A stretch of DNA of 64,000 nucleotides. Origin: Pyropia yezoensis. Lineage: Eukaryota > Rhodophyta > Bangiophyceae > Bangiales > Bangiaceae. The position numbers were made by a program, and so were the translations under genes. Below the pieces are notes generated by a model. It worked only from the letters and a program-made list of their open reading frames with translations. It ran no database searches and was not told the origin of the DNA. Below are positions 6,416-64,000 of this stretch, piece by piece (the stretch's first letter is position 1; each line of letters opens with the position of its first letter). The stretch lies in contig CM020618.1 of NCBI GenBank assembly GCA_009829735.1, positions 36,370,894 through 36,434,893 of the forward strand, written 5' to 3'.

Positions 6416-7242
6416 TGTAACAATATGGATGACCGTATTGTGACCCTAATACAGGGGGGCTACTTCTAACCTTTCACTTTCAATTTGGGAGTCCGTATTG
6501 GTCACGGTATCTATATTGCAGGCGTCCCAATTTTGGAGGTGTGCTGGAAGACAAGAGTTCAACAGCGGTTGACCAATGGCGTGCATCAGATCTTGCTGTC
6601 GCGACCAATGGCAGCCTTGGAGCGGGGTCCGTTGTTGTGCAAACAGAGCGATCGGAGATTGCCGACCGATTTCTGAGCCGATCTGCCGGAGAATCGAGAA
6701 CGACTGAGCCTTCCCAACTGTTCCTGCCCAGGACTCGCCTGAGATCGAGGAAAAAGAGGGGAGATCGTTGGAAAGAACAACAGTATTCTGGCCAATGAGC
6801 TCTCTGATGGAGAAGCCTCAGGACATGGGGCCAATCGCGTACTTCTGGGATCCGAGAACTTATGCATTACTGCGCTGTTCTCATGCCCTTCTCAAACGTC
6901 ATTGGCTGACGTGCTGTCAGCCACCTGTTGTTGTGCAGTTGTACACATGCACAACCGCCAAAATTGGGACGACTGCAATAAGTTACGTATGACCAGAGTG
7001 ACTTGCATCTTGGGGTGGAGGGTAGTTAGTAGTGTCTCCGAGGGTTTATAACGAAGGGGCCGGCGGCGAATCCACCGCCGGCCACGGTAGAACAACAAAC
7101 CCCTCCCATTTGGCCTCCCATCTTGGTCCCGTGGCTTGCGCTCCAAGGACAGCAACCTTGGCCTCCCGGTGACGTTGGTGCCGATCCCCCTTGGTGAGTG
7201 TTCCCTGAGAGTGGACGTGCAGCGGATACCTATTGTGCTACA
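6416..7242 (+). repeat. Element 1 5' LTR (interrupted by MITE)
   Basis: Aligns along its length with 17779-18138. Removing the 463-base insertion and one TA leaves 362 bases against 360 in the 3' copy. Scattered substitutions separate the two LTRs, so the insertion is not recent. Confidence 0.92.
6516..6978. mobile_element. 463-bp MITE, Tc1/mariner-like, inside the LTR
   Basis: Terminal inverted repeats begin TTGCAG[G/T]CGTCCCAATTTTGG on both sides, with about 28 bases of near-perfect pairing. The element is flanked by TA (6514-6515 and 6979-6980). The 3' LTR carries the empty site as a single TA (CTATAAGTT). TA duplication is the signature of the Tc1/mariner superfamily. There is no coding capacity, so it is non-autonomous. 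Confidence 0.88.
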
Positions 7243-7243: not shown

Positions 7244-7260
7244 TGGTGGAGCAGCAGGGG
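7244..7260 (+). promoter_or_regulatory. Element 1 primer-binding site
   Basis: TGGTGGAGCAGCAGGGG begins one base after the LTR end. It starts with TGG, as expected for pairing with a tRNA CCA tail, and implies a tRNA with acceptor 3' strand CTGCTCC and discriminator A. The same 17 bases are used by elements 2 and 3. The tRNA identity cannot be named from here. Confidence 0.75.
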
Positions 7261-9584: not shown

Positions 9585-12500
9585 GAGGAAGGACTACACG
9601 GGGTCGCTGGGGCAACCCTAGCAAGCCACCCCGGACTGCCGCGGGGAAAGCCCCACGGAGAGCGCGGTTGAGCCGACGCCGCATCAATCCCCGGGGACAC
9701 CTTCCGGCCCCGACGACACGGCGTCAGGGGAATGATGACCAACCTCCAAGGACGGGAGGCGAGGACGGGAAGCCCCGTCACGTTGAACCAGACAAGGGCC
9801 CTGTCCAAGATGCCCGAGCTACACCGGATATCGGTGTAGGCCACGTATTGTTCACCATGGAGAACTTCAAGGTATCAGCCACACTGGAGTTGACCCCCAG
9901 TCGACCCGATCGTATTACCATGTACTGGACACAGGGGCTGGGCCGAACCTTATCCGGAAGGATACCCTCCCGGACAAGTGGCTCCCGCGAGTCAGAGTGA
10001 TTCGGGGACCCACGATCAAGGATGCGAATGGTCGTCTCATTCGTACGACTGCAGCGATGTCGCTGCGGGTCACCATCGGGGAACTCACCACGGAAGTCGA
10101 CTTCCTGGTATGTGAGACTCTATCTGTGCCCTGCATACTGGGGTGCAACTTCATCAACGTTCATGTGGATGCAATCCGGCCGGGCCGGAGGGCCGTTGAG
10201 AGGCAAGAGGCCGACGGGACGAAGAGAGGACAGACAGCTATCGTCAGGGACCTGACGCTACAAGGGAGCCACGTTAACGTGGCTGAGGTATACGCAAGCG
10301 TAGAGCCGAGGACACTCTGGCTGGCCAAGCGGACTCGCTTCGAGCCGTTATCGGAGACAGTCCTCCCGGTTAACTGTGACTTAGCAGGCATCTGCAGAGT
10401 CCAGTCCAACCTACGAACCTACAAGCGCCATGGGTTGACTATGGCCAACGGTATCGTAGACCTCCCAGCAAGGGGGTCATCACTGCTCGTGATGGCGAAC
10501 TATCGCCGTATGGCAGTCACCCTTCCGAAAAGGACTATCCTCGGGATCGCCGAGCTCTACGAAGGATACATCCTTACCCTTGACGAGGAAGGTGAAGTGG
10601 AACCACTTGAGGTACTGGCGGTCGCCGAGACCACCGAGCTGAAGGAGCCCGACGCCGGGAAGCCTAACCAATCACCAGCTCCGGCGGACATTCCGCCGAA
10701 GGACCAAGAAGCCTTGAAGGCACTGGCCGAGGCTGGCCTCGACCACCTTCCCCCTTAGGTAGCCGAAGGGGTACGACGGATGCTAAGAAAGCATGACGTC
10801 ATGTGGACCGGCGGGACCCTATGTACCATTGGGGCAACCCAACATCGTATAGACCTGGTACCAGGTGCACGACCAGCGCGGTCGCAACCGCACCGAGCGG
10901 GACCCATGCAACGAGAGATTGTTGACGGAGAAGTAAAGAGGATGAGCGAAGATAAGGTGATCCGACCTTCGATGTCGGAGTGGGGCGCCCCAGTCGCTAT
11001 CGTACCGAAGAAGGATCAAACTTCTCGGTTCTGCATCGATTATCGACGCCTCAACTTGGTTACCAAGAAAGACTCATACCCTTTACCAAGTATGGACGAG
11101 CGTATCGAATCCCTGGGGGAAGCTACAGTGTTTACCGCAATCGACTGCAATGCCGGGTACTGGCAGATCCCAGTTGCAGAGGAGGATATCCCCAAGACGG
11201 CGTTCGTCTGTCACAGTGGAGTGTACGAGTTCCTAAGGATGCCCTTCGGATTTTCCAACGCCCCCGCCACATTCCAGCGGGTCATCGACATTATACTGTC
11301 GGGAGTGAAGTGGCGTAACTGCCTGGTGTACCTGGACGATGTCATCGTCTTCTCGCGTAACATGGATGACCATGTGCAACATGTCGACGAGGTACTCACC
11401 CTCTTGCGGAACGCCGGGGTAGCCCTGCATCTCAAGAAATGCGCCTTCTTTCAGCAGGCCGTCGAGTATCTGGGTCACCAGATCACACCAGGTAAACTGG
11501 TAGTGCTCGAAGCTAATACCCGGGCACTCCGGGATGCGCGATACCCGATCACCCAGACACAGCTGAAAAGCTTCCTAGGGATGTGCAACGTATACCGACG
11601 GTTCGTCAAGGACTTCGCTCGTATAACCAAACCGTTAACGGTTCTTGTGGCGTTCCGAGCCTTTGGGGACAGGCGGGCCCTTGGGGAGGTGACTTGGGAC
11701 CCGGCGGGCTATCCTACGTGGAGCCCTTCTCTTGCCGGGGCCCCCTCTGTCAGTGACTCGGGACTGTGGCGACACACCGGGGATCCTGATTGGTCCCACC
11801 CAGGGAGGCGGATTTTGCCGGTGGAGGTGGCCTGACTGGCCATTGTGGCCATTTGGTTTGTGTTTGTTTTCACTGCATGTTTTCGGGTCTTTCCCCTTTT
11901 TCCCACTGGGTTTTTTCGGGGATTGGCATCTGTGTGTGGGGGGATTTTCGCTTGCTTTTCGCTTGTGCTTGGCGACCGGGGGTTGATTGGTGACCCTCGG
12001 CGCCCCAGTGTAACCCCGGTGTAGGGGATGCGCTGGAGGACCTGGTGGAGGTCAGACGCCTTGCTGGCGCTCGACCCGCCAGGGGCGTCCTCTGGGGGCC
12101 CGGCTCTAGGTCCCTTGAGGGGCCAAGGGGGAGGTTCTTGAGGGGTGCTCCGGGGTCTCCCCGGGGCCAACTTGTAAAATCAACGGTTCTTTGGGTTCTT
12201 GCTCCCTCGGGCTTTTGTCCTTTTACCCTCGCCTCTGAAGGGGCGGGCGAGTGGATCACGCTGGGACCTTTACCCGTTCCTTCCTGACCCCGTTTTGGTT
12301 TCTTGTGTGTGTGGACCCTGGGCCAGAAGGGCCATAACGCTACAGTTCTGACGAGCAGCGCCTTGCCAAAGGTACTCCAACCTCCCTCGCCGAGCGAGGG
12401 AGAGGCATTCGAGCTGCTCAAACAAGCCCCGGTAGCCCCACCCATGCTTGCGTTGCCGCATAGGCGCGGGACCTTTGTCATCGAAGTCGATGCATGCGAT

Positions 12501-14447
12501 ACCCAAGTAGGATGCACCCTGCTACAGGGAGAGACGATCATCGGTACCGATAATGCTATCCCGGACCTACATCCGGTAGGGTACTTCAGCCGGACACTCA
12601 ACCCGGCTGAGCGCAACTATAGTGCCACCGAGCGCGAGTGCCTCGGAGTCACATGGGCAGTGCAACTGCTCCGGCAATACCTGGAAGGATCCAGGTTCAT
12701 CGTGAGGTCCGACCACGAACCTTTACGATGGCTCCTCAACCTTGGTGACAAGGATTCCGACAGCCACGGTCGGCTAGCCCGGTGGAGGCGAAAGATGGCC
12801 GAGCACGACTACCGGACCATATGTAAGGCCGGCGCTACCCATCATCTGGGAGACGCGCTGTCGCGACTCGATACACCGAGCGGGGATACCCGACAAGTGG
12901 ACGAGGACATCCCGGTGGTACCGGTTTGCATGGTGGGTAACGCCACCCAAGGTATGGTTGACCATACCATGGCACACCTGGCGTGCCCATTGACCCTCGC
13001 GGACTTCCACGAGGCACAGGCCAATGACGATGACTGCAAACGCCATCGCGCTAACCTCCTGGCCGGCACGGCCGGCCTCTTCTCCGAGAATGAAGACGGA
13101 CTCATATGCCGGCGGGCACCCGCCGATGGACGACATCGAGTCGTGGTTCCCGTGTCCTTACGACAAGCCTTCATGGAACGAGAACACGAGAACCCTACAG
13201 CCGGTCACCCGGGGGGTTCGCGCATGTTCGCAGCAATGCGGAGGTTCTTCTACTGGCCAGAAGTGGCCGTCGACGTAGTCGACCACGTGCGGGGATGCCA
13301 CCCGTGTGCACGGAATCGTATGAGTCTTCATAGGCGGGCATCCGCTATGAAACTATTCCCACCTGATGGGCCCAACGAGCAAGTCGCTATCGACGTACTC
13401 GGACCACTTCCGGTAACGGAAGAAGGGAACAGGTACATCCTGGTCATGTCTGACCGCTTCACTAAGCTGTCACGAGCGGCAGCCATCCCGAAAGATACGG
13501 CAGACACTATCATGAACGCAGTGGTTGACCACTGGATCAGTGCTTACGGAGTCATGAATCAACTCCTCTCCGACAACGGAGCCAACCTTACGTCAGCATG
13601 CTGCACTAAGGTCATGGGCATGTTCGGTATCGAACCCCGTCGGGCATCCGACTACCACCCGCAATCCAACTGGCAGGTGGAGCGGTTCAACCGCACCATC
13701 GTCAAGATGCTCCAATGCTATATAGCGGAACACACGAACACGTGGGACAGGCTTCTGTCCGTATTGACCCTGGATTACAATTCCAGGCCCCACCGGAGCA
13801 CCAACATTGTCATGCCAATGGGCGTCGGTAACCTGACGCTGCCACCGGGCAGATGCACACGATATGACATACCGAAGGGCCGACCGGCCGAACGGATCCA
13901 TTTAGCTTGGCTTGCCAAGCTATCGTGGATGATACCCAGGCTCAAGCGTGCCCTTGACGGTACACAACTTCGTTACAAGAGGAACTTCGACGCCCGACTA
14001 CGGGTATGCAACGCAACCCTGGTAACAGGTGACTGGGTCTTTATCAGACACCAGAAGTTCCGAGGGAACAAGCTTATGCAACCGGTCAAGGGACCGTACC
14101 AGATATTACACAGAGATGACCACTCTGTCATTCTCCACTCCGATACGGAGATACAACGCATCAATCTCAATGATGTGACACCTGCTCCGAAGCCGGAACA
14201 GCCTCAGCCGTTACCGGCTGGGTTGCTACATGAAGCTCTTACTACCCACCGGTCAGATGACCCGGTGGGGCCGGATGGAATTCCATACCAAGTAGAGAGC
14301 GTGGTTGGACACACCGACCCGGACCCACCAGGACCCTGGTACTTGAAGGTCATGTGGGTCGGATACGACTCACCCACCTGGGAACAGGCGGCAAATATAC
14401 CCCGCCAACTTCTCATGCCTTACATGAGGCGACGCCGCCTATTGTAA
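9579..14447 (+). pseudogene. Element 1 pol polyprotein (PR-RT-RH-IN-chromodomain), broken
   Basis: In the -1 frame relative to gag, the reading begins GKRVRGRTTRG and continues to about 9922. There one missing base shifts it to the frame with the protease motif LDTGAGP. RT follows with CIDYRRLN and YLDDVIVFS. At 11645 the frame is interrupted by a 699-bp solo LTR and resumes exactly at 12350 with the RNase H region (EVDACDTQVG, RSDHEPLRWLL). Integrase has the GHPGGSRM...HPCARNR zinc region, then AIDVLG, LSDNGA and QVERFNR (D, D, E). The last residues form a chromodomain (YLKVMWVGYDSPTWEQA). This marks a chromovirus; such chromodomains are thought to guide integration to particular chromatin. 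Confidence 0.9.
11646..12344 (+). mobile_element. 699-bp solo LTR of a different retrotransposon inside pol
   Basis: The insertion begins TGTGGCGTT and ends AACGCTACA and is flanked on both sides by GTTCT (11641-11645 and 12345-12349). Taking out the insertion and one GTTCT copy joins the RT and RNase H frames exactly. TG...CA ends and a 5-bp duplication are the hallmarks of an LTR insertion; with no internal region it is a solo LTR. Orientation is arbitrary from sequence alone. Confidence 0.85.
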
Positions 14448-14896: not shown

Positions 14897-17262
14897 TCAG
14901 GGGGTAACCCGGCTGCCCGAAGGAGTCCACTCACGCGTAGACGCGGACACCTCCATACTCCACCGTTCGGCAATCTCACGACGGTCAACCGCCTGAGTTA
15001 CCTCAGTGCATAGCTCCACGAGGGTGCTGCGACCAGCCTCCGCTTCCTCGAGAGCTAGCTGGATGCGGTCCAGCACACCATCGAAGCAGCGCGCGGTACC
15101 AACCAGCGCAGCATCTGGGGAGATATCCCCCCAGCTAACAGAGAGACCCTCCCGCAGCTCGCGGGTAAAGAGGGCATCAACGCCCTCATACCATAGACGG
15201 GGACCCCCGTCCGGCATGACAGGGAAGGAAGGAGACACCGGCGCGGCCAGAGGAGCCACAGGAGCCGATACGACTACTACCGGAGCCGGTGCCGCCCGAT
15301 ACGAGGCACGGTAGGATCCCATGGAAGGGGCTCCACCGTAAACCCGGCGGGACTCCGCCCGACGACAGGACGCCTCACGCTGCCCGCCCGTAGATTCCCA
15401 CTCTCGGGGACGACGGCCAACCCCCACCGGTATCGGGTTACCGAACCACGGGGCGATGACCTGAAGAGGGTCATGGATAACCATGGGAATACCCAGGTCA
15501 GGAACAGCCTCGGTAGACGCCCACCCACGGTAGCTGGGCTCACCCGGCTGAGTGCGCCGGATGCGCAACGAGTTACGAGGCAAGGAGGCAGCCCCAGCCT
15601 GCGGATCCCGGTACGGGGGTAGGTTCAACACCTCCGCCCAGTTCACGGCATCGTGAACGGCCAAGAGGGCCTCGATCTCACGGGCCAACCCCGTCTTGGC
15701 AGCAATGGCGTCAACGTTCAGCTCCCCAATATGCCGACGGACACCCTTCGGAAGATGAAACAGCCGTCCCTGCCGACGGACGGACAACAGGAAGGAGGAA
15801 GCCTGCCCGAGGGTAACCTCGAGGGTGAAGGTCCCCTGCAACGGGTGGACAGGCCGAGAGGCCAACACACTACCAAAGTATTGGAGGCACGAGCCGGTGT
15901 CAAACCGGAAAGCCGGGGCGGGTTCCCACCCCTCCTGCCATAGAGGCGGGCGCACTGGAGCGTACACCGGCGCGCGACCGTTACCGGTCTGCAACGCACG
16001 CGTTACATCGGTGCGGAACGCATCCACCATGACACCATGGTTGCGTCGCCAGCTCGACGCCGACTTCAGCCCCGCCATGGGCGGGTACGGCGCCGTCAAC
16101 GTCAAATACGGGGATACCCCCGGGAAGTACTCAAACCCGGGATACCGGCCGGTATAGGGCACGGTGTGCCCGAACGCAACAGGGGTCACCGAGGCCGCAA
16201 CCCCCCGAGCACTAGCCGGGTAGTCAACGCCCCGCGGCAACGCGGGAGCAACCAAGTCGCATACCCCGAACGCGGGGTTGGGGAAGACCTCACCCCGCCC
16301 GACCCGGGTGCGCCAGAGCTGGGCATGCCGGTCGTCCGGCTGACTCAGTATCCAATGATGCTCCACACGGACCGCATTCGGCTGGTTGACCGGCCGCGTC
16401 AACTCCCGATCCCAACACGATTCCAGCTTGACGCGACGGGAGGAACTTCCACGGTGGTTCGGCGGGCGGAAGTCCACCCCCATCCGGCCTGCAGAGTCCA
16501 TAGGCTCTTGCACGGTAAGGCCTCGAACCCGAGCCACCAAGTCGGAAACCGACATAGGGGGGGTGGCCCGCCACCAAGGCGACACCGCCACCCAGCGGGG
16601 CAACCCGAGCGGGCCCAGGAATAATCGGCGGCGCCGGGGGAAGCCCCACCGGCAGATGGGCCGGCGCCGCAGGCGCACGGGGGCGAGGAGGAAGAATAAG
16701 GGCGGGCGCGCGCCCGGAGTAACTCCCGGAGTCCATCGCCATCGGGGAAGACACGTCTTGACGGACATTCGCCCGCGGCACCGCGGGAAGTGCATCGTCA
16801 CCACCCGGCCCGACGAGGGCACAACGGGGACGGATGGGGTAGACCCTTCAACCGCCCCCGCGGACGGACCACCAACCGGGCGGGTACCCGCACCATCTTG
16901 ACCCGCCGTCCCGGCCGGGGCGCCGCCACAATCATCAGCAGCAGCAGCTGCCCCATCTTGAGGTAGCGCCGCGCCGGCACCGGCGACAGGACCCATCCGG
17001 GCCGCCGGAGGAGTAGGAAGAGGAGCCACCACACGCGGTTGACCGCCCCCCGACGGCGCCGTCATGCCGCTGCAGACGGACGACAGCCAGCCCGGCGGGC
17101 CTCCGCCGGCACGCGGACGGTCACCCAATCCTCGTCGTCCTCCGACGAGCTGGCGAGGAAGCACTCGGCAGCGGTAGCAGCGACGGGAACGTCGTCTTGC
17201 GTCACCTCCTCCTCCTCAAGCAGGAGGTCGTCCGTGCCCCCGGGCACCTGGGGGTCCGACAT
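14897..17262 (-). pseudogene. Antisense ORF of element 1, between pol and 3' LTR
   Basis: A long coding region lies on the strand opposite to gag-pol. The natural start appears to be the ATG at 17262 (MSDPQVPGGTDDLLLEEEE), an acidic N-terminus running to about 17090. The reading then changes frame at least twice (near 17080 and 16700-16550) and continues in a 2.2-kb frame ending at 14897. Pro/Ala-rich segments precede a C-terminal part that resembles the antisense protein of element 2: RLFHLPKGVRRHIGELNVD compares with RLWFLPDLLMVWIVDKLTVD, LVGTARCFDGVLDRI with LVLGTYASVLNDVVDRV, and EIAERWSMEV with LAQQWSETF. No known domain is recognised. Function is unknown; antisense additional ORFs are known in some plant Ty3/gypsy (Tat-lineage) elements. 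Confidence 0.65.
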
Positions 17263-17766
17263 GGTAGATCCGGGGTGGCAGGGGTTCCCCGTGCCAAGAA
17301 GCCGCAGCCGGCTCGACCTGGTACGGGGAATGCACAGGGACGAGCCAGGGAAGCGCGGGCACCCGCGCTTATAGCCACACAGCCCGGCACGAGGGATACG
17401 GCAACGCGGGACGACCCGCGCCAACCGAGCTACGAGGTCGCTCCACCCAGGCACCTAGGTCAGCGCCACAGCCCCATTCACTCGTCCACACGAGAGGGGC
17501 TCCCCTACCACCAGACGCCTGGTGGCGGCTCCGCTTGCACCGCCCCCCGGAGAGGGGGTCGTGACACGAAAACCCGCATCGGGAATTCAACGGTCCGGAA
17601 AACGGATCGTGTGTGTACCACACAAAGAGGGGCACCCCCCTCAGACAACCCCGAAAAGAGGTGTCTGCCGCGACAGGGCGCAAAGCCCCACCCGACTGGT
17701 AAACGGTCGCGCGACCCACTTACATTTGGAAACCCGAATGCAACTCGACCCGAGGAGGCCGAATCT

Positions 17767-17778: not shown

Positions 17779-18138
17779 TGTAGCAATATGGATGACCGTA
17801 TTGTGACCCTAATGTAGGGGGACTACTTCTAACCCTTAACTTCAATTGGGAGTCCGTATTGGTCACGGTATCTATAAGTTACGTATGACCAGAGGGACTT
17901 GCATCTTGGGGTGGAGGGTAGTTTGTAGAGTCTCCGAGGGGTCATCACGAGGGGGCCGGTGGCGAATTCACCGCCGGCCGTGGTAGAACAACAAACCCCT
18001 CCCATTTGGGCTCCCATCTTGGTCCCGTGGCTTGCGCTCCAAGGACAGCAACCTTGGCCTCCCGGTGACGTTGGTGCCGATCCCCCTTGGTGAGTGTTCC
18101 CTGAGAGTGGACGTGCAACGGTGCCCTATTGTGCTACA
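17779..18138 (+). repeat. Element 1 3' LTR (360 bp)
   Basis: Uninterrupted copy with TGTAGCA at the start and TGCTACA at the end. A near-palindromic GC hairpin (GGGCCGGTGGCGAATTCACC...) lies near 17955-17985 and is also in the other LTR copies. Confidence 0.92.
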
Positions 18139-52111: not shown

Positions 52112-52683
52112 TGTAGCATCCCTGGCCCCGACTTGGCGCCGACCCGGGACTGCAACCAGAGGGCACCAGGTGCCAGAACACGCCCGCCGTGTGGCGATGG
52201 TTGGCGGCCGTGGCCCGTGCCCGGCACTGGGATGCGGTGGACTACGCTATCCACACGCGAGAGAGGGATTTCTGATGTGTTTTTGCATATTTGTGAGGGA
52301 CTTGATTTGAGAGAATTTGAGTGTGAGATTAGTGAGTGGGAATAGAATTAGTAGTGATAGTGGCCCCCGACCTGACGAGGTTAGACTCGGGTCGGGGCCA
52401 CTCGGGGTTATGGGGGGGCTACCGGGCCAACGTGCCGGGGTTCCCCCAGATGCACGTTAAGAGGGACAGCGAGGCGCCCTCGGCCCGCGCCCTCAGGGAA
52501 AAAGACAACTGCGCGTTTGCTTTCCTCTTCCCCGTGTGCACTACCGTGCGTATCTGTTTGCCCTGCAAGCAGGCACGTGAGACAACAGGCATACCATTCT
52601 CGTAGTTCCCCTTTCTGCGTTACCTGTCCCTTTCCCCCGAGGGATATTGACACGTGTCTGAGAGGATCGAGTTTTATACCACA
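52112..52683 (+). repeat. Element 3 5' LTR (572 bp)
   Basis: Starts TGTAGCATCCC and ends TTTTATACCACA. Same length as the inverted copy at 54705-55276, with no difference noticed by eye. Confidence 0.92.
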
Positions 52684-52687
52684 TATT

Positions 52688-52704
52688 TGGTGGAGCAGCA
52701 GGGG
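52688..52704 (+). promoter_or_regulatory. Element 3 primer-binding site
   Basis: TGGTGGAGCAGCAGGGG, four bases after the LTR end; identical to the site in element 1. Confidence 0.75.
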
Positions 52705-52892
52705 ATTGGAGTGTTTGAGAAGAGACATTTGGGAGCAGCGGTTGCGTTGTTCCTATTCTGTCTTTTTCTGTGGTTTGGGAATTATTTGCACCCGTTCACG
52801 GGAACCCCATTCCTGGCTCTCCAACCCCTCTCTTGTGGTCTTGCGATCTTTGGACACGCAGGTAACTGGACTGTGGCTGTCAAGAGACCAAC

Positions 52893-54653
52893 ATGGCTAC
52901 CCTCCCTGGCACGACGGTGCCCGAAGGGGTAGACCCCGCGTCCCTTGACGCATCCCTGGTCACCGCGGGGGACGGTGCCCAACTCGGCGTTCTCCCTACG
53001 GGTGAAGCAGACCTGGGCGTGACATCCGGTAGTGGACTGGAGTCTACAGGCGGCCAAGTACCGCCTGCTCCCGTTCCTCCGGCTGTTCCTCCTGTGGGAG
53101 CCACCCCGGGGTCAACGGCGTTTGAGTCCGCTCGCAGCAGACGTCTCCCTCCTGTCGGTTCTACTCTTCAACCTCCAGGGATAGCCCCTGGTGTGTTCAC
53201 TCCTGGACCCACACATGGCAGCTGGGTGTATACACCTCTTCCTGTGGGCACTAGCAGTGCCAGAGGCACCGCTATGACTGGTTCTACGGGTCTTCCTGAG
53301 ACTTCGACTCCTGGGACCGGCCAAGCTTTTCCTCCCCTTGCGTCCTATGGGGCGGGGAGCTCCAAGACCGGTGACCGGAGCAGCCGTAGGCGTCGGCGTC
53401 GTCGCCGCCGCTCTAGCACCAGCGAGACCAGTTCCTCCAGCTCTGAGGAGGGATATGACTGGGATGCATCTCCCGGTCCTACCCGGCGCAGGCTAGTCGA
53501 GTTCGACTTCCCTGCCCACCAAGTGGGAGATGCCACCCTGAACAAGGTCACGTATTGGGGTAACTACCGGCTGGAGAACCAAGACCAAGGTTACACCCGG
53601 AAGATGGCCAAGAAGATGGCATCCCTGAACCGGCGAATGCAGCCGAGCTTTGGGGGGCATCCTAAGTTTTCCGGGAAGAGACCGGCGCTTATCTTTGCCT
53701 TCCTGCGCCGGTTTGTCAAGGCATGCAATGACAACGATGTGTCCGAGGGCAAGGCTCTCTATCTCCTGGTTAACTTCATGACCGGAGAAGCGGAACAGCG
53801 GTTTGCACAGGTTCTACCAGACTCTGCCGGGCACATTGTTGGACGTACCGTCGCGAGTTATCCGGAGGCGGTCAACTGGCTCCTGTCCAACTACGCAGAC
53901 GCGGACTCCCTGCGTAAGGCAGTCGGTAGGCTGAACCGGGCAACCATGGAGAGACAAGAGACTCCAGAGGCGTTCGCCCGTCGTGTCCGGGAGATGAGCG
54001 ATGCTTGTGGCAACGTTTACCCTGAGGACAGGCTCAAGATGATCTTCTCGGAGGGGCTTCCTGAATATCTTCAAGTGGATGCGGAGAACTACAACCAGGA
54101 ACATCAAGAACATACCTTCCAGCAGTTGATGGCCTATACCCAGGGCAAGCACCGGCAAGCCAAGGCCCTCCAGGCTCCTATGGTATCAACCCCCAAGCCG
54201 TTGTCGCGAGTTCGTCCCGGACCCGACAAGTATAAGGGAGGAGATAACCCTGTACCGGTACTCGCAGTTGGCGAGGCCTCACCCATGGAGTCAAGGGACA
54301 AGTGGGGCGGCTTCGTTTCTAAGGAGCAACCTTCCCTGGTCGCCCCCAAGCAGATCAGGAACCAGCGGTTCCGGTCTTGCTGGCTGTGCCAGAAGGAGGA
54401 TCATATGTCCTACCAGTGCCCGACCATTCCCGAGGATCTCCAGGAGAAACTCAAGCGTCAAGGACTGGTGTTTGCAAAGGCGGTCAACTGGGCTGACCGG
54501 CGGGCACCCTCCAAGATGGACAAGGCACAGGTACATGCCATCCGAGTGGCAACCTTACAGAGCATCACGGAGGCTCTGGCAAGGGAAGCTCCTACGGACT
54601 TTGACCTGGAGACCGAAACCTCTAAGGACTCCTCGGAGCCGGGAAACGAGTAG
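52893..54653 (+). CDS. Element 3 gag
   Basis: 586 residues from the ATG at 52893. Order: a Pro/Gly/Thr-rich N-terminus, an Arg/Ser-rich patch (about residues 160-190), a Ty3/gypsy capsid region (PSFGGHPKFSGKRPALIFAF and following), and a CCHC zinc knuckle at Cys496, Cys499, His504, Cys509. Gag forms the particle and binds the element RNA. The protein ends SSEPGNE over the slippery GGGAAAC (54641-54647). Identical to the gag at 61813-63573. Confidence 0.9.
   Translation: MATLPGTTVPEGVDPASLDASLVTAGDGAQLGVLPTGEADLGVTSGSGLESTGGQVPPAPVPPAVPPVGATPGSTAFESARSRRLPPVGSTLQPPGIAPGVFTPGPTHGSWVYTPLPVGTSSARGTAMTGSTGLPETSTPGTGQAFPPLASYGAGSSKTGDRSSRRRRRRRRRSSTSETSSSSSEEGYDWDASPGPTRRRLVEFDFPAHQVGDATLNKVTYWGNYRLENQDQGYTRKMAKKMASLNRRMQPSFGGHPKFSGKRPALIFAFLRRFVKACNDNDVSEGKALYLLVNFMTGEAEQRFAQVLPDSAGHIVGRTVASYPEAVNWLLSNYADADSLRKAVGRLNRATMERQETPEAFARRVREMSDACGNVYPEDRLKMIFSEGLPEYLQVDAENYNQEHQEHTFQQLMAYTQGKHRQAKALQAPMVSTPKPLSRVRPGPDKYKGGDNPVPVLAVGEASPMESRDKWGGFVSKEQPSLVAPKQIRNQRFRSCWLCQKEDHMSYQCPTIPEDLQEKLKRQGLVFAKAVNWADRRAPSKMDKAQVHAIRVATLQSITEALAREAPTDFDLETETSKDSSEPGNE
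54641..54647 (+). promoter_or_regulatory. Probable -1 frameshift site, element 3 gag-pol
   Basis: G GGA AAC read in the gag frame, followed by GAG TAG. The -1 frame is open into pol. Confidence 0.7.
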
Positions 54654-54704
54654 GGCAGGCGCTCTCCCCAAGTGTCTTCCCGAATCTCCAACGGCAGGGT
54701 ACTT

Positions 54705-55276
54705 TGTGGTATAAAACTCGATCCTCTCAGACACGTGTCAATATCCCTCGGGGGAAAGGGACAGGTAACGCAGAAAGGGGAACTACGAGAATGGTATGCC
54801 TGTTGTCTCACGTGCCTGCTTGCAGGGCAAACAGATACGCACGGTAGTGCACACGGGGAAGAGGAAAGCAAACGCGCAGTTGTCTTTTTCCCTGAGGGCG
54901 CGGGCCGAGGGCGCCTCGCTGTCCCTCTTAACGTGCATCTGGGGGAACCCCGGCACGTTGGCCCGGTAGCCCCCCCATAACCCCGAGTGGCCCCGACCCG
55001 AGTCTAACCTCGTCAGGTCGGGGGCCACTATCACTACTAATTCTATTCCCACTCACTAATCTCACACTCAAATTCTCTCAAATCAAGTCCCTCACAAATA
55101 TGCAAAAACACATCAGAAATCCCTCTCTCGCGTGTGGATAGCGTAGTCCACCGCATCCCAGTGCCGGGCACGGGCCACGGCCGCCAACCATCGCCACACG
55201 GCGGGCGTGTTCTGGCACCTGGTGCCCTCTGGTTGCAGTCCCGGGTCGGCGCCAAGTCGGGGCCAGGGATGCTACA
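54705..55276 (-). repeat. Element 2 3' LTR (572 bp)
   Basis: On the minus strand it begins TGTAGCATCCC at 55276 and ends ATACCACA at 54705. A purine-rich tract (AGGGAGGGAGCTA on the minus strand, 55277-55289) lies directly upstream as the likely polypurine tract. Confidence 0.92.
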
Positions 55277-55461
55277 TAGCTCCCTCCCTAGTCCGGCACG
55301 TCCTCGGGCCGAACCAGGTGCCACCGTGCACAGCCTCGAGCACGTCCACACCGGTGCCGAGGTCGAGCGTCTTGACCCCGGTCACGATCACCTGCCCCGA
55401 TTCTGCCCCCCCCCCTCCGCTCCTTCACCTTGGCCCTCTCGTTCCCCGGAGTCTGGACGGT

Positions 55462-57579
55462 ATGTCCAGTTCCGAGATCCAAGCTGGGCCCGTGGTTCCG
55501 GCGGCGAGTGTTGCGGAGGAGAACTCGGGTCGTCGTGCCCCTCTCCTGCCTCCGGTTCCTCGGATGTCGGTGCCGGCGCCGGTCGCCACGGCGGGGACGG
55601 ATCGAGTTCCCCCGGCTTCCGCGATGCACCCGGTCGAGGCCCCCCCGGAGGGTCTCCCGGAGATGCTTCTTGGGCAGGACCCTCTGGCGGCCCGGCGTTA
55701 CTCCACGGTGGTCGGCAACGCCGGCGCGGCCCAGTGCCAGCAGGATTGCATGGACCTCTGGCGCAAGGAACTCCAGCGCGGGGTCTTGACCGAGATGGAC
55801 AAGGCACGTCTTCATACGGCGGACCAGATGCGCCTGGCACAAGACCGCTCCCAGAGCTTCTCGGGTTCCTCTTGGGCTGCTCGTCTGGAGGATCTCCCCT
55901 TCGCGCTGGTACTGGATCTACCCTTGACCGAGCGTCGCGTGTCCGCGTCCGTTCTCCGGTGGCCGGAGGAGGAAGGGTACGTCCACCGGGCGCTCAAGGT
56001 CTGGGACGAGGCGCTCAAGGGGTCGGGAAGCTTGAACTGCGACCCCCGTCCGAGCATGGTCGCTCTGGAGCCGCCTTTCTTGACCCGGAAATACTCCAAG
56101 TTGTCGCCGGCACGGGAGCAGGGTGAGCGACGCGGGCGTCAGCGTGACTTCCTTGTGAGCTGCAACCACCAGGAGTTCTGGAAGCTGGACAAGGCTAACC
56201 GGGCGGCATACTACCCCAAGGTCATCCCGCAGCAGCAGGAAGTCGAGATCCCGGTCGGGTTTGCTCCTTCCAGCATCCCTTGCACCTGGTACTTCTTGGA
56301 CGCCTTGACTCAGGCGTCGATCAAGGGCTTCTTCCATTCAATCCCGTACATGATGTACACGTCCGAGATGACAGTCTTGGCGGCCAACCACTGGCTTCAC
56401 GAGGTCTTGGTGTCCAACCGGCTTTGGTTTCTCCCCGACCTCCTGATGGTCTGGATTGTCGACAAGTTGACCGTCGACTTCCTGTGCAGCGAGGACGAGG
56501 AGTACAAGGAGCTCTTCCAGGCGATGATCGACTTCCGGCGTCTGGTACCGGTGCATGACCGGAGCTTCTTGAACGCGATTGCCGACCAGAACCGCCCGCG
56601 TCGGGATGGCTACGGTTGGGCGCAGGTGGTCTACCAGTCTTCTCCGGCTAAGGTGCAGCTGGCGACGCCGCTTCCGGCGTGGCCGCAGCTAGGTAGCTTT
56701 CCTGCTCCGGCCGCCCTTGATCTTCTGCAAGTTGGGCCGCCGGTGCGGGAGTCGGGATGGGCCGCGGCGGTCGGTCGGGCGTCTGCGGCGGCTCCGCTTC
56801 CTCCTGTTGCCCCTGTCGCCCCGGTTGCCTCGCCTGAACCGTCACCGGCGCGTCCGCGCCCTGTTCCTGCTGTGCCGGTACTTCAAGCTCCTCCGGCACC
56901 GCGCTTGTCTGCGGCGAGTCTGGGAGTGGCCGTGCGGTCGCCGACTACTCCGGTCGCTCTACCCCGGACGCCTTCTTCCAACGCCGGCGGCGCTGTGCCT
57001 CCGCTGGAGTTGGGCACTCCGGTCTCGGGGGCCGTTGTGGACCGTCCGGTAGTGTCATCCTCGGGCCGGTTCGAGATTCCGGCGCCGACTCTGCGCCTTA
57101 CCCGCTTCCGGGTGCCTGACTGGTACCTGAACCAAGGTGGTCCAACATGCGACCAGTACGACGTCGGTATGATTGAAGACAAGCTGGGTCGTCTTCCGGT
57201 GCAGGTTGAAGGCGTCGGGTCTTCTCTGGTGCTGGGCACTTACGCCAGTGTCTTGAACGACGTGGTCGACCGGGTGTTTGCTTGCGCGGACAGCGGTCAG
57301 ATGTCGAACAACCCGGTGGTTGGCGAACTCCTGGCGACTTTGACGCGGCATGGCTTGGCCCAGCAGTGGTCAGAGACCTTCACGGGCTTCCAGCGGCGCC
57401 GACGGACATATCTGGATGAGCGGGAGCCACCGGCAACTACTGGTACTACTCCGATGGCGTCATACCGGGATGCGCCGCGTCCACCGCACTACGTCATCCC
57501 GTCTTCCTCCGGTTCCCGTCGTACCGCGGGGGCAGCGCCGGAGGATACTCCCTCGGCTCAGCGTCCGCGCCGAGAGTAG
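55462..57579 (+). CDS. Antisense ORF of element 2, between pol and 3' LTR
   Basis: From the ATG at 55462 (MSSSEIQAGPVVPAASVAEE) this encodes 705 residues on the strand opposite to gag-pol. The same frame stays open back into the 3' LTR to 55207, so antisense transcription could start in the LTR. A Pro/Ala-rich N-terminus is followed by a mixed alpha-helical region (LWRKELQRGVLTEMDKARL, YTSEMTVLAANHWLHEVLV, LLMVWIVDKLTVDFLCSEDE). Next comes a ~150-residue Pro/Ala linker, then a compact C-terminal block (DWYLNQGGPTCDQYDVGMIE, VLNDVVDRVFACADSG, VVGELLATLTRHGLAQQW). Several blocks parallel the antisense ORF of element 1. No known domain is recognised. It ends 145 bases from the end of pol, so the two genes converge. 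Function unknown. Confidence 0.75.
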   Translation: MSSSEIQAGPVVPAASVAEENSGRRAPLLPPVPRMSVPAPVATAGTDRVPPASAMHPVEAPPEGLPEMLLGQDPLAARRYSTVVGNAGAAQCQQDCMDLWRKELQRGVLTEMDKARLHTADQMRLAQDRSQSFSGSSWAARLEDLPFALVLDLPLTERRVSASVLRWPEEEGYVHRALKVWDEALKGSGSLNCDPRPSMVALEPPFLTRKYSKLSPAREQGERRGRQRDFLVSCNHQEFWKLDKANRAAYYPKVIPQQQEVEIPVGFAPSSIPCTWYFLDALTQASIKGFFHSIPYMMYTSEMTVLAANHWLHEVLVSNRLWFLPDLLMVWIVDKLTVDFLCSEDEEYKELFQAMIDFRRLVPVHDRSFLNAIADQNRPRRDGYGWAQVVYQSSPAKVQLATPLPAWPQLGSFPAPAALDLLQVGPPVRESGWAAAVGRASAAAPLPPVAPVAPVASPEPSPARPRPVPAVPVLQAPPAPRLSAASLGVAVRSPTTPVALPRTPSSNAGGAVPPLELGTPVSGAVVDRPVVSSSGRFEIPAPTLRLTRFRVPDWYLNQGGPTCDQYDVGMIEDKLGRLPVQVEGVGSSLVLGTYASVLNDVVDRVFACADSGQMSNNPVVGELLATLTRHGLAQQWSETFTGFQRRRRTYLDEREPPATTGTTPMASYRDAPRPPHYVIPSSSGSRRTAGAAPEDTPSAQRPRRE

Positions 57580-57724: not shown

Positions 57725-60700
57725 TCAATCCTCTTGTTCCGCATCCGTTGCGGGTGAGCTCGTCTCGTCCCGAGGGTCTTGGTTGGCCCCGTCCTCTTGG
57801 TCCTCCTCCGTGTCCGACTCCAGAATCTTGCCGGCTCTGGCCACGGGAGTGCCCTCAATCCCGTTCCGTCGCGTGTAGGCACAGACGTCCGCGATGGGTA
57901 GCCGGTTTGAGGGTTCCCATGTATCATCTGCCGGGTTGAAACCGAACCAGCGTACTCGCAGGTACAGGCGTCCATCTCTCCAGGCATGGTCGACAAACTT
58001 GACGTAGACAAATTCCCGACCTTCTTCTTGGGATAGCCAGGGTATCGCAGTCCGCTTACGCCGGGTCAAGTCCCGTTGGCTTGGCGGTGGAGCTCGGGTG
58101 ACATGGTCGCTGCTCACCCGGTACGGAGAGCCATCCACGTCTAGAAGGAAGGTCCAGCCATCCGTATTGAGAATCTCATAAGGTCCATCCGTCTTAGAGT
58201 CCAGCTTCCCCCGGGTCTTGCTATGGTTGTCCACAAAAACCCAGTCGCCACCACCCAGTTCCTTGTTCTTTTCCCGGACACCCTTGTCATAGTCCCGCTT
58301 ATATCGCTCCTGGGTCTTTGAGATTGACTCCTTGACTCTTGGGAGCAGGAGCTTTAGTTGTTCCAGGAACTCATCCTTTGCCTTGGGACCTGACTTCAGT
58401 GCAGGCTGGAGACCATCCGGTATTCTTTCTAGGGAGAAGTTGGTCAGCCGCCTTGGGGTGACAAAGTCGAGTGGAGCGACTCCCGTTGTCCGGTGAACTC
58501 GGGAGTTGTAGGCTAGAGTGAGGACAGCCAGGAGCTCGTCCCAGTCTTCTTGATGCTCCTCCACGTAGTGCCGTAGCATGTCCACTAGGGTCCGGTTGAA
58601 TCGTTCCACCTGGCCGTTCGTTTGAGGGTGGTACGTCGTGGTGTACAAGTTCTTGATGCCCATCAGGTCACAGACTCCTTGGAAGAACAGGGATGCAAAC
58701 TGGGGACCGTTATCGGTTAAGACGGAGTCTGGAGGGCCATAGGCAGCTATCCAGTACTCGCAGAAGGCCGACGTGACATCCAGAGCCGTGATGGTTCTCA
58801 ACGGGATTGCTCGAGTGAACTTGGAGAACCGGTCACAAATGATGAGCAGGTATATGTTGCCACTGGAGGTCTCAGGTAGGGGCCCCAGGATGTCCATGCT
58901 TAAGCTTGCAAAGGGCTCCGCCGCAGGGAATAGGCGTAGCTTAGAAGTCTTCTTCCTCTGGGACAACCGGTTCCTTGCACAAGAAATACAAGCCTCCAGG
59001 CACTTATGGACGTCACTGGCCATGGTTTCCCAGTAATAGTGTCGTCTCATGGAAGCATACATCCGATTGATACCAGGATGTCCGGCCTGGGGAGACGAGT
59101 GCTCCAGGCGTAGGATGTCAGTCCGTAGGCTCCGGGGTACGTAGACTTGAGTTGCCCCATCGAAGGGTGACACCCGTACCAGGAGTCCGTCTGTAGACTC
59201 GGAGAAGCGACTGTTCCGGTTCAGGTCCATTTGGTGGCGAAGCTCCAAGCATTGAGGGTCCGTCAATTGTGCCTCCAGCATCCGGTGAATGGTTACCGGT
59301 TGATGAGCGTCAGGTGTCTCGTACAGGGGAGCGTGCCAGCCACGTCCGACATTCGGGAGGATGAAGCAAGGTATTTCCTCCGGGATAGGACCGGTATCGG
59401 CTGCAGGAGTCTCCAGCCGGGACATGGTGTCGGCGCAGTGGTGCTCCCTCCCTGCTCTGGTGCACACCTTGTACTTGAACTCCGAAAGGCGTAGGCCCCA
59501 CCGGGCGACCCTTCCTTGACTGCTGTCCATGCATAGCAGCCACCTTAGACTGGCGTGGTCCGTCCGGATGAGGAACTCTTGTCCTTCAAGATATGGACGT
59601 AACAGGAAGCAAGCCCAGACGACCGCCAAGCACTCGCGCTCGGTCGTGGAATAGTTCTTCTCGGCTGGAGTCAAGACGCGACTGTAGTAGCCTATCGGGA
59701 GGAAGTGCCCATCAGGTTGCTGCTGGAGTAGTGAGCACCCCACCTGGACGCCACAGGCGTCAGTCTCCAGAACAAACTGACCCTCCCGCTTGGGTAACGC
59801 CAGTACTGGAGTGGTGGTCAGGCGCTTCTTGAGCTCTTCGAAGGCTGCTGTCTGCTTCTCGTCGAACACCGGGAGTTGTGCTGGAAGCTTCTTGCTAGTA
59901 AGCTTGGTCAAGGGCCGGGCAATCAGAGCGTAGTCCCGTACGAACCGGCGGTAGACGTTGCACATACCCAGGAAGCTCTTGAGTTCCGTCTGGGTTTTAG
60001 GTTGCCGTGCATGCCGGAGGGCCTTGATGTTCTTCTCATTGACTCGGAGCTCCCCCGGACTCAGCACGTGCCCCAGGTACTCCACCTCAGTCTCAAACAG
60101 GTGGCACTTCTCGGCCTTGAGGGTAACTCCAGCCTTGGACAGGAGGGCCAGGACCTCTCGAAGGTGCTCCAGGTGTTCCGCTGGGGTCTTGGAGAAAACA
60201 ATGATGTCGTCCAGGTAGACCAAACATGTTCTCCACCTTAGCCCCGACAGGATGATGTCGATGGCTCTCTGGAAGGTTGCCGGAGCATTAGTGAGACCAA
60301 AAGGGAGACGCTTGCACCGGAATAGTCCCAGGTGGCACGTGAAGGTAGTCTTGTCCTTGTCCTCGTCAGCCAGAGGGATCTGCCAGTAACCGGCATTACA
60401 ATCCAGCGTCGAGAAGAGGGTGGCATCACCAAGAAAGTCGAGGCAATCATCCATCCGGGGTATCGGGTATACATCCTTGACTGTCATCTCGTTCAGGCGT
60501 CTGTAGTCAACGCAGAAACGGAAGTGACCGCCAGGTTTCGGGACGACTACCACCGGGAAAGCCCACTCGCCATCAGACGGCTCGATAACATCCATCTTGA
60601 GCATCTTGTTAACCTGCTTCTCAATCTCATCCCGGCGATGAGGTCCAGCCCGGTATGGGTGCATGTGCACTGGTTTGGCATCTGGCTTGAGTTGAATCCG

Positions 60701-61818
60701 GTGTAGGGTGGCGTCCATCTTGCCCAGCTCTCCGGACCACAGGTGCCGGTATTCCTGGAGAAGCTTCTCCAGTGCCTCCTTCAAGTCGGGAGGGACGTTT
60801 TCTTGGTTGACCTTCGGCATCCCGGGCGGTGCTTGTTCGGGCTTCGGAGTAATACGGCCAGCCTGCTCTTGTTCCGGAGATACGTCTAAGGCCGTCAAGT
60901 TGGATGCCAGCTCTTGTTGCAGGTTGAAGAGGTCTTCCTTGCTCATAGCGCGGGCGGACCCCCGGTAAGGCTCTGCTGTACCAACTCGAGTGCCCTTGGC
61001 GAGGGTTATTGGCTTCCGGCTCACGTTGACGATCAGCACCGAGAACGGGGTGTGCCTCTCCACCTTCTTGTGGTGTCCGTGGGCTAGGTATAATCGGTGT
61101 TTCGCCAGAAATTCCTTGCGTCCGTAGATCAGGCATTGACCTGCAGTCCGGGTCGTGACTTGAACCTTGGTCTCCGAGCGAGGAGGTAGGAGCACCGGTT
61201 TGATGAGGGTCAAGGTAGAGGGTGGGATGCGTTCCTTCTGGTTCTTGGCCACACGAACCTTGGTGTCCAGGTGCTCCAGCACTGGTGACACAAACCCATG
61301 GTTGAACTGCACCTTTCCTTCTCCGGGTAGGATGCTCTTGACATGCTGCTTCTGGAAGTCCCAGCCTAGGATGAGGGGGACTGATAAGGTCTTGACTACT
61401 AGAAAGGGAAAAAGCATTGGTTCATTGTTGACATAGATGGCGACGGGAAGACGGCCAAGCGGTCGTAGGGTTTGACCTGATGCGTCCACAATCCGGGTCT
61501 TGGTAGGCGCTCTCCAGGCATGTCGACGCCAGCCCGGAGGTAACAGGTTCTCAGTGATGACGCTTGGTCCGGCTCCCGTGTCGACCACCGGCGTAACAGC
61601 TTGGGGGAGGCTATCCCCCACACGCATACGAGCATTAATCTTGAGGTTTTCCTTACGCAGGACGAGCAAGGTCCCCTTGAACAAACAGGGTGTCCAGGCG
61701 GCTACCGGTTGAGCAGGTAACTGCCGTCCTTTCTCCCGGCACGCAAGGGGAGAACAGGTAGAAGTACCCTGCCGTTGGAGATTCGGGAAGACACTTGGGG
61801 AGAGCGCCTGCCCTACTC
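57725..61818 (-). CDS. Element 2 pol polyprotein (PR-RT-RH-IN-chromodomain), intact
   Basis: In the -1 frame of gag, open from the slippery site through the gag stop to TGA at 57725. Residues counted from the TTG codon at 61684: aspartic protease VVDTGAGPSVI (Asp35); RT with CVDYRRLN and YLDD at 490-493; RNase H with ETDACGVQVG (Asp642) and RTDH; integrase zinc ligands His862, His869, Cys899, Cys902; catalytic Asp931 (SMDILG), Asp991 (LTDNG) and Glu1027 (GQVERFN). A chromodomain lies at about 1225-1272 (LRVRWFGFNPADDTWEPSN). Together these copy RNA to DNA and integrate it, the chromodomain probably steering site choice. No inactivating change is visible, so the element may be mobile. Confidence 0.93.
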
Positions 61819-63573
61819 GTTTCCCGGCTCCGAGGAGTCCTTAGAGGTTTCGGTCTCCAGGTCAAAGTCCGTAGGAGCTTCCCTTGCCAGAGCCTCCGTG
61901 ATGCTCTGTAAGGTTGCCACTCGGATGGCATGTACCTGTGCCTTGTCCATCTTGGAGGGTGCCCGCCGGTCAGCCCAGTTGACCGCCTTTGCAAACACCA
62001 GTCCTTGACGCTTGAGTTTCTCCTGGAGATCCTCGGGAATGGTCGGGCACTGGTAGGACATATGATCCTCCTTCTGGCACAGCCAGCAAGACCGGAACCG
62101 CTGGTTCCTGATCTGCTTGGGGGCGACCAGGGAAGGTTGCTCCTTAGAAACGAAGCCGCCCCACTTGTCCCTTGACTCCATGGGTGAGGCCTCGCCAACT
62201 GCGAGTACCGGTACAGGGTTATCTCCTCCCTTATACTTGTCGGGTCCGGGACGAACTCGCGACAACGGCTTGGGGGTTGATACCATAGGAGCCTGGAGGG
62301 CCTTGGCTTGCCGGTGCTTGCCCTGGGTATAGGCCATCAACTGCTGGAAGGTATGTTCTTGATGTTCCTGGTTGTAGTTCTCCGCATCCACTTGAAGATA
62401 TTCAGGAAGCCCCTCCGAGAAGATCATCTTGAGCCTGTCCTCAGGGTAAACGTTGCCACAAGCATCGCTCATCTCCCGGACACGACGGGCGAACGCCTCT
62501 GGAGTCTCTTGTCTCTCCATGGTTGCCCGGTTCAGCCTACCGACTGCCTTACGCAGGGAGTCCGCGTCTGCGTAGTTGGACAGGAGCCAGTTGACCGCCT
62601 CCGGATAACTCGCGACGGTACGTCCAACAATGTGCCCGGCAGAGTCTGGTAGAACCTGTGCAAACCGCTGTTCCGCTTCTCCGGTCATGAAGTTAACCAG
62701 GAGATAGAGAGCCTTGCCCTCGGACACATCGTTGTCATTGCATGCCTTGACAAACCGGCGCAGGAAGGCAAAGATAAGCGCCGGTCTCTTCCCGGAAAAC
62801 TTAGGATGCCCCCCAAAGCTCGGCTGCATTCGCCGGTTCAGGGATGCCATCTTCTTGGCCATCTTCCGGGTGTAACCTTGGTCTTGGTTCTCCAGCCGGT
62901 AGTTACCCCAATACGTGACCTTGTTCAGGGTGGCATCTCCCACTTGGTGGGCAGGGAAGTCGAACTCGACTAGCCTGCGCCGGGTAGGACCGGGAGATGC
63001 ATCCCAGTCATATCCCTCCTCAGAGCTGGAGGAACTGGTCTCGCTGGTGCTAGAGCGGCGGCGACGACGCCGACGCCTACGGCTGCTCCGGTCACCGGTC
63101 TTGGAGCTCCCCGCCCCATAGGACGCAAGGGGAGGAAAAGCTTGGCCGGTCCCAGGAGTCGAAGTCTCAGGAAGACCCGTAGAACCAGTCATAGCGGTGC
63201 CTCTGGCACTGCTAGTGCCCACAGGAAGAGGTGTATACACCCAGCTGCCATGTGTGGGTCCAGGAGTGAACACACCAGGGGCTATCCCTGGAGGTTGAAG
63301 AGTAGAACCGACAGGAGGGAGACGTCTGCTGCGAGCGGACTCAAACGCCGTTGACCCCGGGGTGGCTCCCACAGGAGGAACAGCCGGAGGAACGGGAGCA
63401 GGCGGTACTTGGCCGCCTGTAGACTCCAGTCCACTACCGGATGTCACGCCCAGGTCTGCTTCACCCGTAGGGAGAACGCCGAGTTGGGCACCGTCCCCCG
63501 CGGTGACCAGGGATGCGTCAAGGGACGCGGGGTCTACCCCTTCGGGCACCGTCGTGCCAGGGAGGGTAGCCAT
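61813..63573 (-). CDS. Element 2 gag
   Basis: 586 residues from the ATG at 63573, the same protein as element 3 gag: Arg/Ser patch, capsid region and CCHC knuckle at 496-509. Stop TAG at 61813. The retained identity with the sister copy implies both are recent. Confidence 0.92.
   Translation of the reverse strand: MATLPGTTVPEGVDPASLDASLVTAGDGAQLGVLPTGEADLGVTSGSGLESTGGQVPPAPVPPAVPPVGATPGSTAFESARSRRLPPVGSTLQPPGIAPGVFTPGPTHGSWVYTPLPVGTSSARGTAMTGSTGLPETSTPGTGQAFPPLASYGAGSSKTGDRSSRRRRRRRRRSSTSETSSSSSEEGYDWDASPGPTRRRLVEFDFPAHQVGDATLNKVTYWGNYRLENQDQGYTRKMAKKMASLNRRMQPSFGGHPKFSGKRPALIFAFLRRFVKACNDNDVSEGKALYLLVNFMTGEAEQRFAQVLPDSAGHIVGRTVASYPEAVNWLLSNYADADSLRKAVGRLNRATMERQETPEAFARRVREMSDACGNVYPEDRLKMIFSEGLPEYLQVDAENYNQEHQEHTFQQLMAYTQGKHRQAKALQAPMVSTPKPLSRVRPGPDKYKGGDNPVPVLAVGEASPMESRDKWGGFVSKEQPSLVAPKQIRNQRFRSCWLCQKEDHMSYQCPTIPEDLQEKLKRQGLVFAKAVNWADRRAPSKMDKAQVHAIRVATLQSITEALAREAPTDFDLETETSKDSSEPGNE
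61819..61825 (-). promoter_or_regulatory. Probable -1 frameshift site, element 2 gag-pol
   Basis: Minus-strand G GGA AAC followed by GAG TAG; pol lies in the -1 frame and overlaps the end of gag. Confidence 0.72.
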
Positions 63574-63761: not shown

Positions 63762-63778
63762 CCCCTGCTGCTCCACCA
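63762..63778 (-). promoter_or_regulatory. Element 2 primer-binding site
   Basis: Minus-strand TGGTGGAGCAGCAGGGG, four bases inside the 5' LTR end. Confidence 0.75.
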
Positions 63779-63782
63779 AATA

Positions 63783-64000
63783 TGTGGTATAAAACTCGAT
63801 CCTCTCAGACACGTGTCAATATCCCTCGGGGGAAAGGGACAGGTAACGCAGAAAGGGGAACTACGAGAATGGTATGCCTGTTGTCTCACGTGCCTGCTTG
63901 CAGGGCAAACAGATACGCACGGTAGTGCACACGGGGAAGAGGAAAGCAAACGCGCAGTTGTCTTTTTCCCTGAGGGCGCGGGCCGAGGGCGCCTCGCTGT
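63783..64000 (-). repeat. Element 2 5' LTR (partial, cut by window end)
   Basis: The 3' portion of the LTR ending ATACCACA at 63783 on the minus strand. It aligns with 54705-54922 without a difference noticed by eye. Confidence 0.92.

Follow-up and report, generated by a model that had tools for sequence, protein, structure and literature searches.

A putative antisense accessory gene between pol and the 3' long terminal repeat in two chromovirus-type families of the red alga Pyropia yezoensis

Antisense open reading frames (ORFs) located between pol and the 3' long terminal repeat (LTR) have been described for the plant retrotransposons Grande, RIRE2, Retand and PvRetro13 and for the fungal element Boty (PMC7264820); statements credited to this and the other cited papers refer to the excerpts of them that were available. 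Flowering plants have supplied most of the known antisense accessory genes, whose role is stated as unknown, while precedents exist for antisense proteins in the nucleus (PMC7264820, PMC11963269). Extra ORFs were reported in most non-chromovirus OTA elements and in 74% of SIRE elements (PMC6317226). Chromoviruses are on record in green and red algae (PMC3605345), and the Tcn1-like group is given as absent from red algae in the excerpt of PMC2864245. Here, a stretch of 64,000 nucleotides from the red alga Pyropia yezoensis (assembly GCA_009829735.1, contig CM020618.1, positions 36,370,894 to 36,434,893 of the forward strand, hereafter the window) was analysed, which carries two Ty3/gypsy elements, element 1 on the + strand and element 2 on the - strand. 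The subject is an antisense ORF of element 2 at 55462..57579. It is read as a real accessory protein gene of an algal chromovirus lineage, set in antisense orientation in the interval from pol to the 3' LTR, intact and under selection, likely of shared origin in the two elements and presumably encoding a nuclear regulator, and a probability of roughly 0.78 is attached to this reading. No description of an antisense gene in algal chromoviruses was found in the open-access literature, a scope outside which most subscription papers fall, and this agrees with an earlier note on the same DNA that had regarded such a gene as undescribed.

The antisense gene of element 2 comprises 705 codons on the + strand, from an ATG at 55462 to a TAG stop at 57577-57579, and occupies the space separating pol from the 3' LTR, with gag and pol running in the opposite sense on the - strand. 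The coordinates given in the earlier note were exact, as was its description of the gene as convergent with pol, and position and orientation fit the aORF-3R class. The counterpart that the note had placed on the opposite strand of element 1 is also present, at 14897..17164 (- strand), as an open frame of 755 codons; this copy is damaged, its antisense frame being frameshifted relative to 789-codon relatives. The length of the antisense ORF is not a product of chance, as the longest open frame was 766 in one of the two regions (simulated maximum 634) and 772 in the other (simulated maximum 510), and none of 1000 order-2 Markov simulations reached the observed length in either region. Moreover, the three frames of the sense strand opposite the element-2 ORF contain 8, 13 and 12 stops, respectively.

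The element-2 protein is laid out as a core (residues ~122-415) and a C-terminal region (~535-705) with a Pro/Ala-rich linker between them, and a basic run near its C-terminus might, judging from its sequence, serve as a nuclear entry signal. Its sole database relative found, P0005, is 97% identical, and the 19 differences fall in the core (7/293), the linker (8/120) and the two following parts (1/120 and 3/50). Five database relatives were found for the element-1 protein, of which two are close (82-83% identity) and three are hypothetical proteins of Pyropia vietnamensis (45-59% identity). Against P0008, identities of the element-1 protein amount to 150/249 in the core, 38/88 in the linker and 33/90 in the C-terminal region. 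No relative was confirmed in viral contigs or in bacterial and archaeal genome contigs.

Copies were sought in the whole assembly of 107,475,971 bases, in which the window corresponds to C1:36370894-36434893. The searches returned the best-scoring places, and the counts are therefore lower bounds, biased to well-kept copies. The element-2 antisense protein gave 58 rows, corresponding to at least 57 places since one copy was matched in two pieces; an internal stop is present in 2 of the 57 ORF places listed and absent from 55. A full ORF starting with MSSSE occurs in 18 of 20 fetched loci, with 705 codons in 16 of them and 708 in the other 2. The element-1-type protein P0006 is represented in at least 91 places (5 with internal stops), the element-2 pol in at least 35 (none with an internal stop) and the last pol ORF of element 1 in at least 62 (1 with an internal stop). 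As for the company that the gene keeps, it adjoins pol in 35/35 element-2 pol copies among the matches listed: 25 have an antisense place within 400 bases, and the other 10, checked in 400 fetched bases each, all contain coding sequence for the antisense protein's C-terminus in that flank, with the match broken or shortened in 3 (L063, L065, L066). Similarly, the pol C-terminus lies on the opposite strand in 37 of 40 fetched element-1-type antisense loci, and the remaining 3 (L056-L058) belong to a tandem array. Presence of the ORF in related elements, which the earlier note had proposed as a check, is thus borne out in both families.

That array, at C2:9880067-9892399, consists of four element-1-type antisense copies spaced ~3,489 bases apart, and no pol C-terminus was found in the flanks of its three fetched units. 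Among the 40 element-1-type loci, 15 start with MSDP and all of these have 789 codons, while the others begin with MSYP or MSYS and have different lengths, or are truncated. A further element-2 group was also observed, with rows covering residues 55-790, 63-790, 67-790 and 68-790, the ATG being residue 86; as these matches begin only at residues 55-68, ahead of the ATG, the LTR or leader of this second group differs. In addition, a genome search with PF17921 gave at least 150 integrase zinc-domain places, among which open frames of 1186 and 1255 codons recur, a sign of further Ty3/gypsy families in this genome. In L073, 2,001 bases beside one such place, there was no ORF of more than 205 amino acids, and neither of the antisense proteins was significantly similar to it; the pol end was an estimate there, and the result does not show that the gene is missing from other families.

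Selection on the antisense frame was measured in the 18 full-length element-2 copies of the 20 fetched, L017 and L020 (stop) being dropped. The pooled ratio of nonsynonymous to synonymous polymorphism (pN/pS) was 0.195, and variable sites at codon positions 1, 2 and 3 numbered 30, 19 and 71, while the frames shifted by 1 and 2 gave pN/pS of 1.38 and 1.76. The last 286 codons of pol at the same 18 loci gave 0.128; the density of variable sites in pol was left unused, as it looks inflated by alignment and one copy is cut in pol. Two more diverged element-2 copies, compared with four others, gave ratios of nonsynonymous to synonymous substitution rates (dN/dS) of 0.16-0.31 at a dS of ~0.11, with values of up to 0.46 for the closest pairs, which differ by few changes. 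For element 1, a usable start was available in 27 of the 40 loci, and the remaining 13 were set aside. Between its subfamilies dN/dS was 0.30, 0.31 and 0.39, and within them pooled pN/pS was 0.41, 0.30 and 0.49 (15, 5 and 4 sequences), the smallest subfamily having a median dN/dS of 0.62. The core of the element-1 protein had the lowest value, 0.263, versus 0.41-0.50 in the rest (24 sequences, without L056-L058). These values therefore indicate purifying selection on the antisense protein, with that of element 2 more strongly constrained than its element-1 counterpart. Ratios well below 1, together with ORFs that are intact in nearly all listed copies and stand beside pol, uphold the earlier note's view of a functional gene.

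The same note had held that the two antisense proteins look remotely related, on the strength of two motif pairs, both of which are present in the order stated. Profile-profile comparison by hhalign was nominally significant: the first profile gave P=0.0051 with 0/600 column shuffles reaching the score, and a richer one (15 family-1 and 8 family-2 sequences) gave P=0.0027 with 0/1000 shuffles, the score being 34.0 versus 33.2 for the best shuffle. The aligned stretch spans ~110 residues and includes the first motif pair, and P0001, the element-2 protein, ranked first among 40 window proteins (31.8 versus 23.2). With the core alone, 1 of 500 shuffles reached the hhalign score. Pairwise tests, in regions picked after the match was seen, were reached for the core by 0, 1 and 5 of 2000 shuffles against P0006, P0002 and P0008, and for the C-terminus by 10, 8 and 376 of 2000, respectively. 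The positive control, gag against gag, gave an E-value (E) of 1.1e-12. A shared origin of the two antisense genes is considered probable from these sequence comparisons, and they have likely diverged much faster than pol.

Several results weigh against the reading as an accessory protein gene of shared origin. BLASTP between the element-1 and element-2 proteins gave a best E of 0.96, with a 222-residue match over the first motif at E 3.6. The HMMER family-1 profile was not significant against P0001, as 177-238 of 2000 shuffles reached its best domain and most of 2000 reached its whole-sequence score. The hhalign probabilities were low (7% with the first and 11% with the richer profile), and the C-terminal region alone was not significant by hhalign. 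The relatedness that the note had suggested is thus upheld by hhalign and left without support by BLASTP and HMMER, and since HMMER was not significant, remote homology is likely but not proven. As regards domains, Pfam up to E 0.1 gave none in P0001 or P0002, the sole match being a weak one to DUF6214 (E 0.014) in 1 of 8 proteins. Matches in the PDB were limited to Rieske chains (E 0.02-0.1) over the Pro/Ala-rich linker of the element-2 protein, with none for family 1. AlphaFold models were poor, with a mean predicted local distance difference test (pLDDT) of 31.6 and 30.3. Likeness of relative synonymous codon usage to gag and pol was uninformative on the coding frame (0.68 versus 0.73 for a shifted frame). 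Among the sense-strand frames of element 2, with pN/pS of 1.04, 0.243 and 1.60, the second is also low, which is attributed to the third positions that it has in common with the antisense frame. Moreover, ATGs upstream in the LTR would burden an RNA begun at the TATAAAA of element 2 (see below).

As to how the gene might work, its transcription would run counter to that of gag-pol and begin at a promoter situated somewhere from the LTR interior to the ATG. In element 1 the ATG at 17260..17262 (- strand) matches, by comparison with relatives, the start of full-length relatives (MSDPQ...), and a putative promoter motif, TATAAG, lies at 17368..17373 (- strand), ~106-110 nt upstream. The motif ATAAG precedes the element-1 gene in 25 of 27 fetched copies, as CATAAG in 19 and TATAAG in 6, and an own promoter may lie around it. 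A strict TATA box for element 1 was considered and rejected, since TATAAG occurs in 6/27, CATAAG in 19 and neither in 2 at that place. For element 2, where a promoter could not be placed, the 3' LTR is a candidate; a TATAAAA motif stands at its far edge, 752-760 nt before the ATG, in 18/18 copies. Neither motif in itself shows a promoter. The protein would have a core that is probably helical, followed by a flexible linker and a C-terminal region; a helix group in the core and one helix at the C-terminus are hinted at by both models, and no more than hinted at because mean pLDDT is ~30. By analogy with plant aORF-3R proteins (PMC7264820, PMC11963269), it would most likely act in trans in the nucleus, regulating the RNA of the element, its integration complex or its chromatin state.

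Other explanations have to be weighed against this one. Each family might have gained an antisense gene separately at the same site, with the motif likeness arising by chance, which would suit the non-significant BLASTP and HMMER profile tests, the C-terminal region that is not significant by hhalign and weak against P0008, and the suggestion in PMC6317226 that plant extra ORFs were gained separately from several sources. Such independent acquisition appears unlikely, given that no shuffle reached the whole-protein hhalign score, that P0001 ranks first among the window proteins, that the core was reached by 0-5 of 2000 shuffles, though in regions chosen post hoc, and that motif order and primer binding site (PBS) are the same. 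Alternatively, the antisense gene might be self-limiting, restraining copy number through double-stranded RNA from convergent transcription or through a trans-acting inhibitor, and not aiding replication. The convergent arrangement of the genes is in keeping with this, and antisense RNA has been proposed as a regulator in plants (PMC7264820), but a role of RNA only would not preserve amino acids as do the pN/pS of 0.195 and the excess of third-position changes; an inhibitor protein is still compatible with these, and the explanation as a whole is judged quite improbable.

DNA that is G+C-rich (63.5%) and a window with numerous long ORFs elsewhere, some overlapping on both strands, could lead one to suspect an ORF due to chance or composition, or the shadow of a sense-strand gene. 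This is scarcely credible in view of the simulations and the stops in the element-2 sense frames, of pN/pS values that fall far below 1 in no frame but the antisense one and a single sense frame sharing its third positions, and of relatives in another species. Neither was a domain recognised nor the origin of the gene traced, which would be compatible with a host gene captured by transduction and without function for the element; its place beside every listed element-2 pol copy and with pol in nearly all fetched element-1-type loci, and selection over many copies, make this very improbable, as a chance capture would not be so kept. The accessory protein gene of an algal chromovirus lineage is therefore the preferred reading. 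Its wider form stands at about even odds: the chromoviruses of red algae would have in common a regulatory antisense protein, ancient and fast-evolving, that is older than the split of the two families, constitutes an undescribed domain family and is an algal parallel to retroviral antisense genes.

The pol of element 2 (57725..61684, - strand) encodes, by Pfam, a protease-like part, reverse transcriptase, RNase H, integrase and a C-terminal chromodomain; its best PDB match is Ty3 Gag-Pol (7q5b, E 8.1e-108), residues 1218-1268 match the HP1 chromodomain chain 6asz (E 6.8e-5), and the Pfam Chromo match has E 8e-5, below the curated cut-off. Reverse transcriptase, RNase H and integrase of Ty3 type were recognised by Pfam in both elements, and element 2 is assigned, from these domain matches, to the chromodomain-bearing Ty3/gypsy elements (chromoviruses). 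Its gag (61813..63573, - strand, 586 amino acids) has a CCHC-like motif at Pfam E 0.018, below cut-off. The 3' LTR (54705..55276, - strand, 572 bp) reads TGTAGC...CCACA on the - strand and has a 100% inverted match to 52112-52683, and the 5' LTR (63783..64000, - strand) is a direct match to 54705-54922, incomplete because the window ends there. A polypurine tract read from the sequence (AGGGAGGGAGCTA on the - strand) adjoins the 3' LTR at 55277..55291 (- strand). The PBS, TGGTGGAGCAGCAGGGG, was identified in the inverted copy, which is identical, at 52688-52704 and placed via the inverted match at 63762..63778 (- strand). It is common to elements 1 and 2. Since its 19-mer has 1,496 exact occurrences in the genome, against 0 for a reversed 19-mer used as control, the lineage might be a large one. 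The inverted copy is represented by its 5' LTR and gag at 52112..54704 (+ strand; 100% inverted match, gag match). The two element-2 copies stand head to head, the second (54705-64000) sitting within the first (52112-54704), right after gag, and their LTR and gag stretches compared are 100% identical.

In element 1, the 5' LTR (6416..7242, + strand) exceeds the 3' LTR (17779..18138, + strand, 360 bp) by 467 bp, an excess on which the region 6480-6977 bears. A PBS was read from the sequence at 7244..7260 (+ strand). The gag (7884..9584, + strand) has 28% identity to that of element 2 (E 1e-17) and no match in Pfam, while identity in pol is 41-43%. The pol (9997..14447, + strand) is split into several frames, the last ORF being 12303-14447, and is interrupted at 11653-12341, between the parts that match element-2 pol residues 33-597 and 593-1273. 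The Pfam Chromo match in element-1 pol is weak (E 0.0068, below cut-off).

Elsewhere in the window, WD40 repeats are encoded in a - strand frame at 1-1194 by 141-bp DNA repeats that are nearly identical to each other (85-96%), which suggests recent repeat turnover. A frame at 47274-48491 with a DDE_Tnp_4 endonuclease domain is a DNA transposon gene, and inverted and direct repeats cluster at 22932-23870 (308-nt arms, 96%; 149-nt direct repeat, 95%). DUF3493, a photosystem-II assembly domain, and a triose-phosphate transporter nearby are consistent with a photosynthetic host, and the Pyropia vietnamensis relatives of the element-1 protein point to a red alga, probably of the Bangiales.

The trait of antisense accessory genes is hereby widened to algal chromoviruses. 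The kind of antisense ORF is itself known; new are its algal chromovirus hosts and the direct evidence of purifying selection. The lineage provides copies by the tens that are near-identical and for the most part intact, selection on the protein can be measured, and another species holds relatives; production of the protein, its promoter and its helping or restraining role become testable.

Among described systems, the Retand lineage (TRP28, PF04195), the maize Grande gene23 and rice RIRE2 likewise carry, in the interval from pol to the 3' LTR, a long antisense ORF that is kept across many families, and in Grande this gene is served by a separate promoter and its product is nuclear (PMC11963269, PMC7264820). 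Retand belongs to a non-chromovirus lineage of flowering plants, whereas element 2 has a chromodomain pol and a red-algal host. PF04195, the TRP28 domain, was absent from the matches up to E 5 for 8 proteins, a range in which HMMER filters remove most matches above ~0.1. Plant chromoviruses have the same gag-pol with a C-terminal chromodomain, LTRs and a tRNA-type PBS, but no antisense gene is named for them in the excerpt of PMC6317226, while the elements described here have one. Outside plants, Boty of Botrytis cinerea is alike in slot and orientation, going by its description in PMC7264820. The deltaretroviruses, with HBZ of human T-cell leukaemia virus type 1 (HTLV-1), likewise carry an antisense gene at the 3' end, a likeness of position, and in HTLV the antisense promoter is located in the 3' LTR (PMC7264820, PMC11963269).
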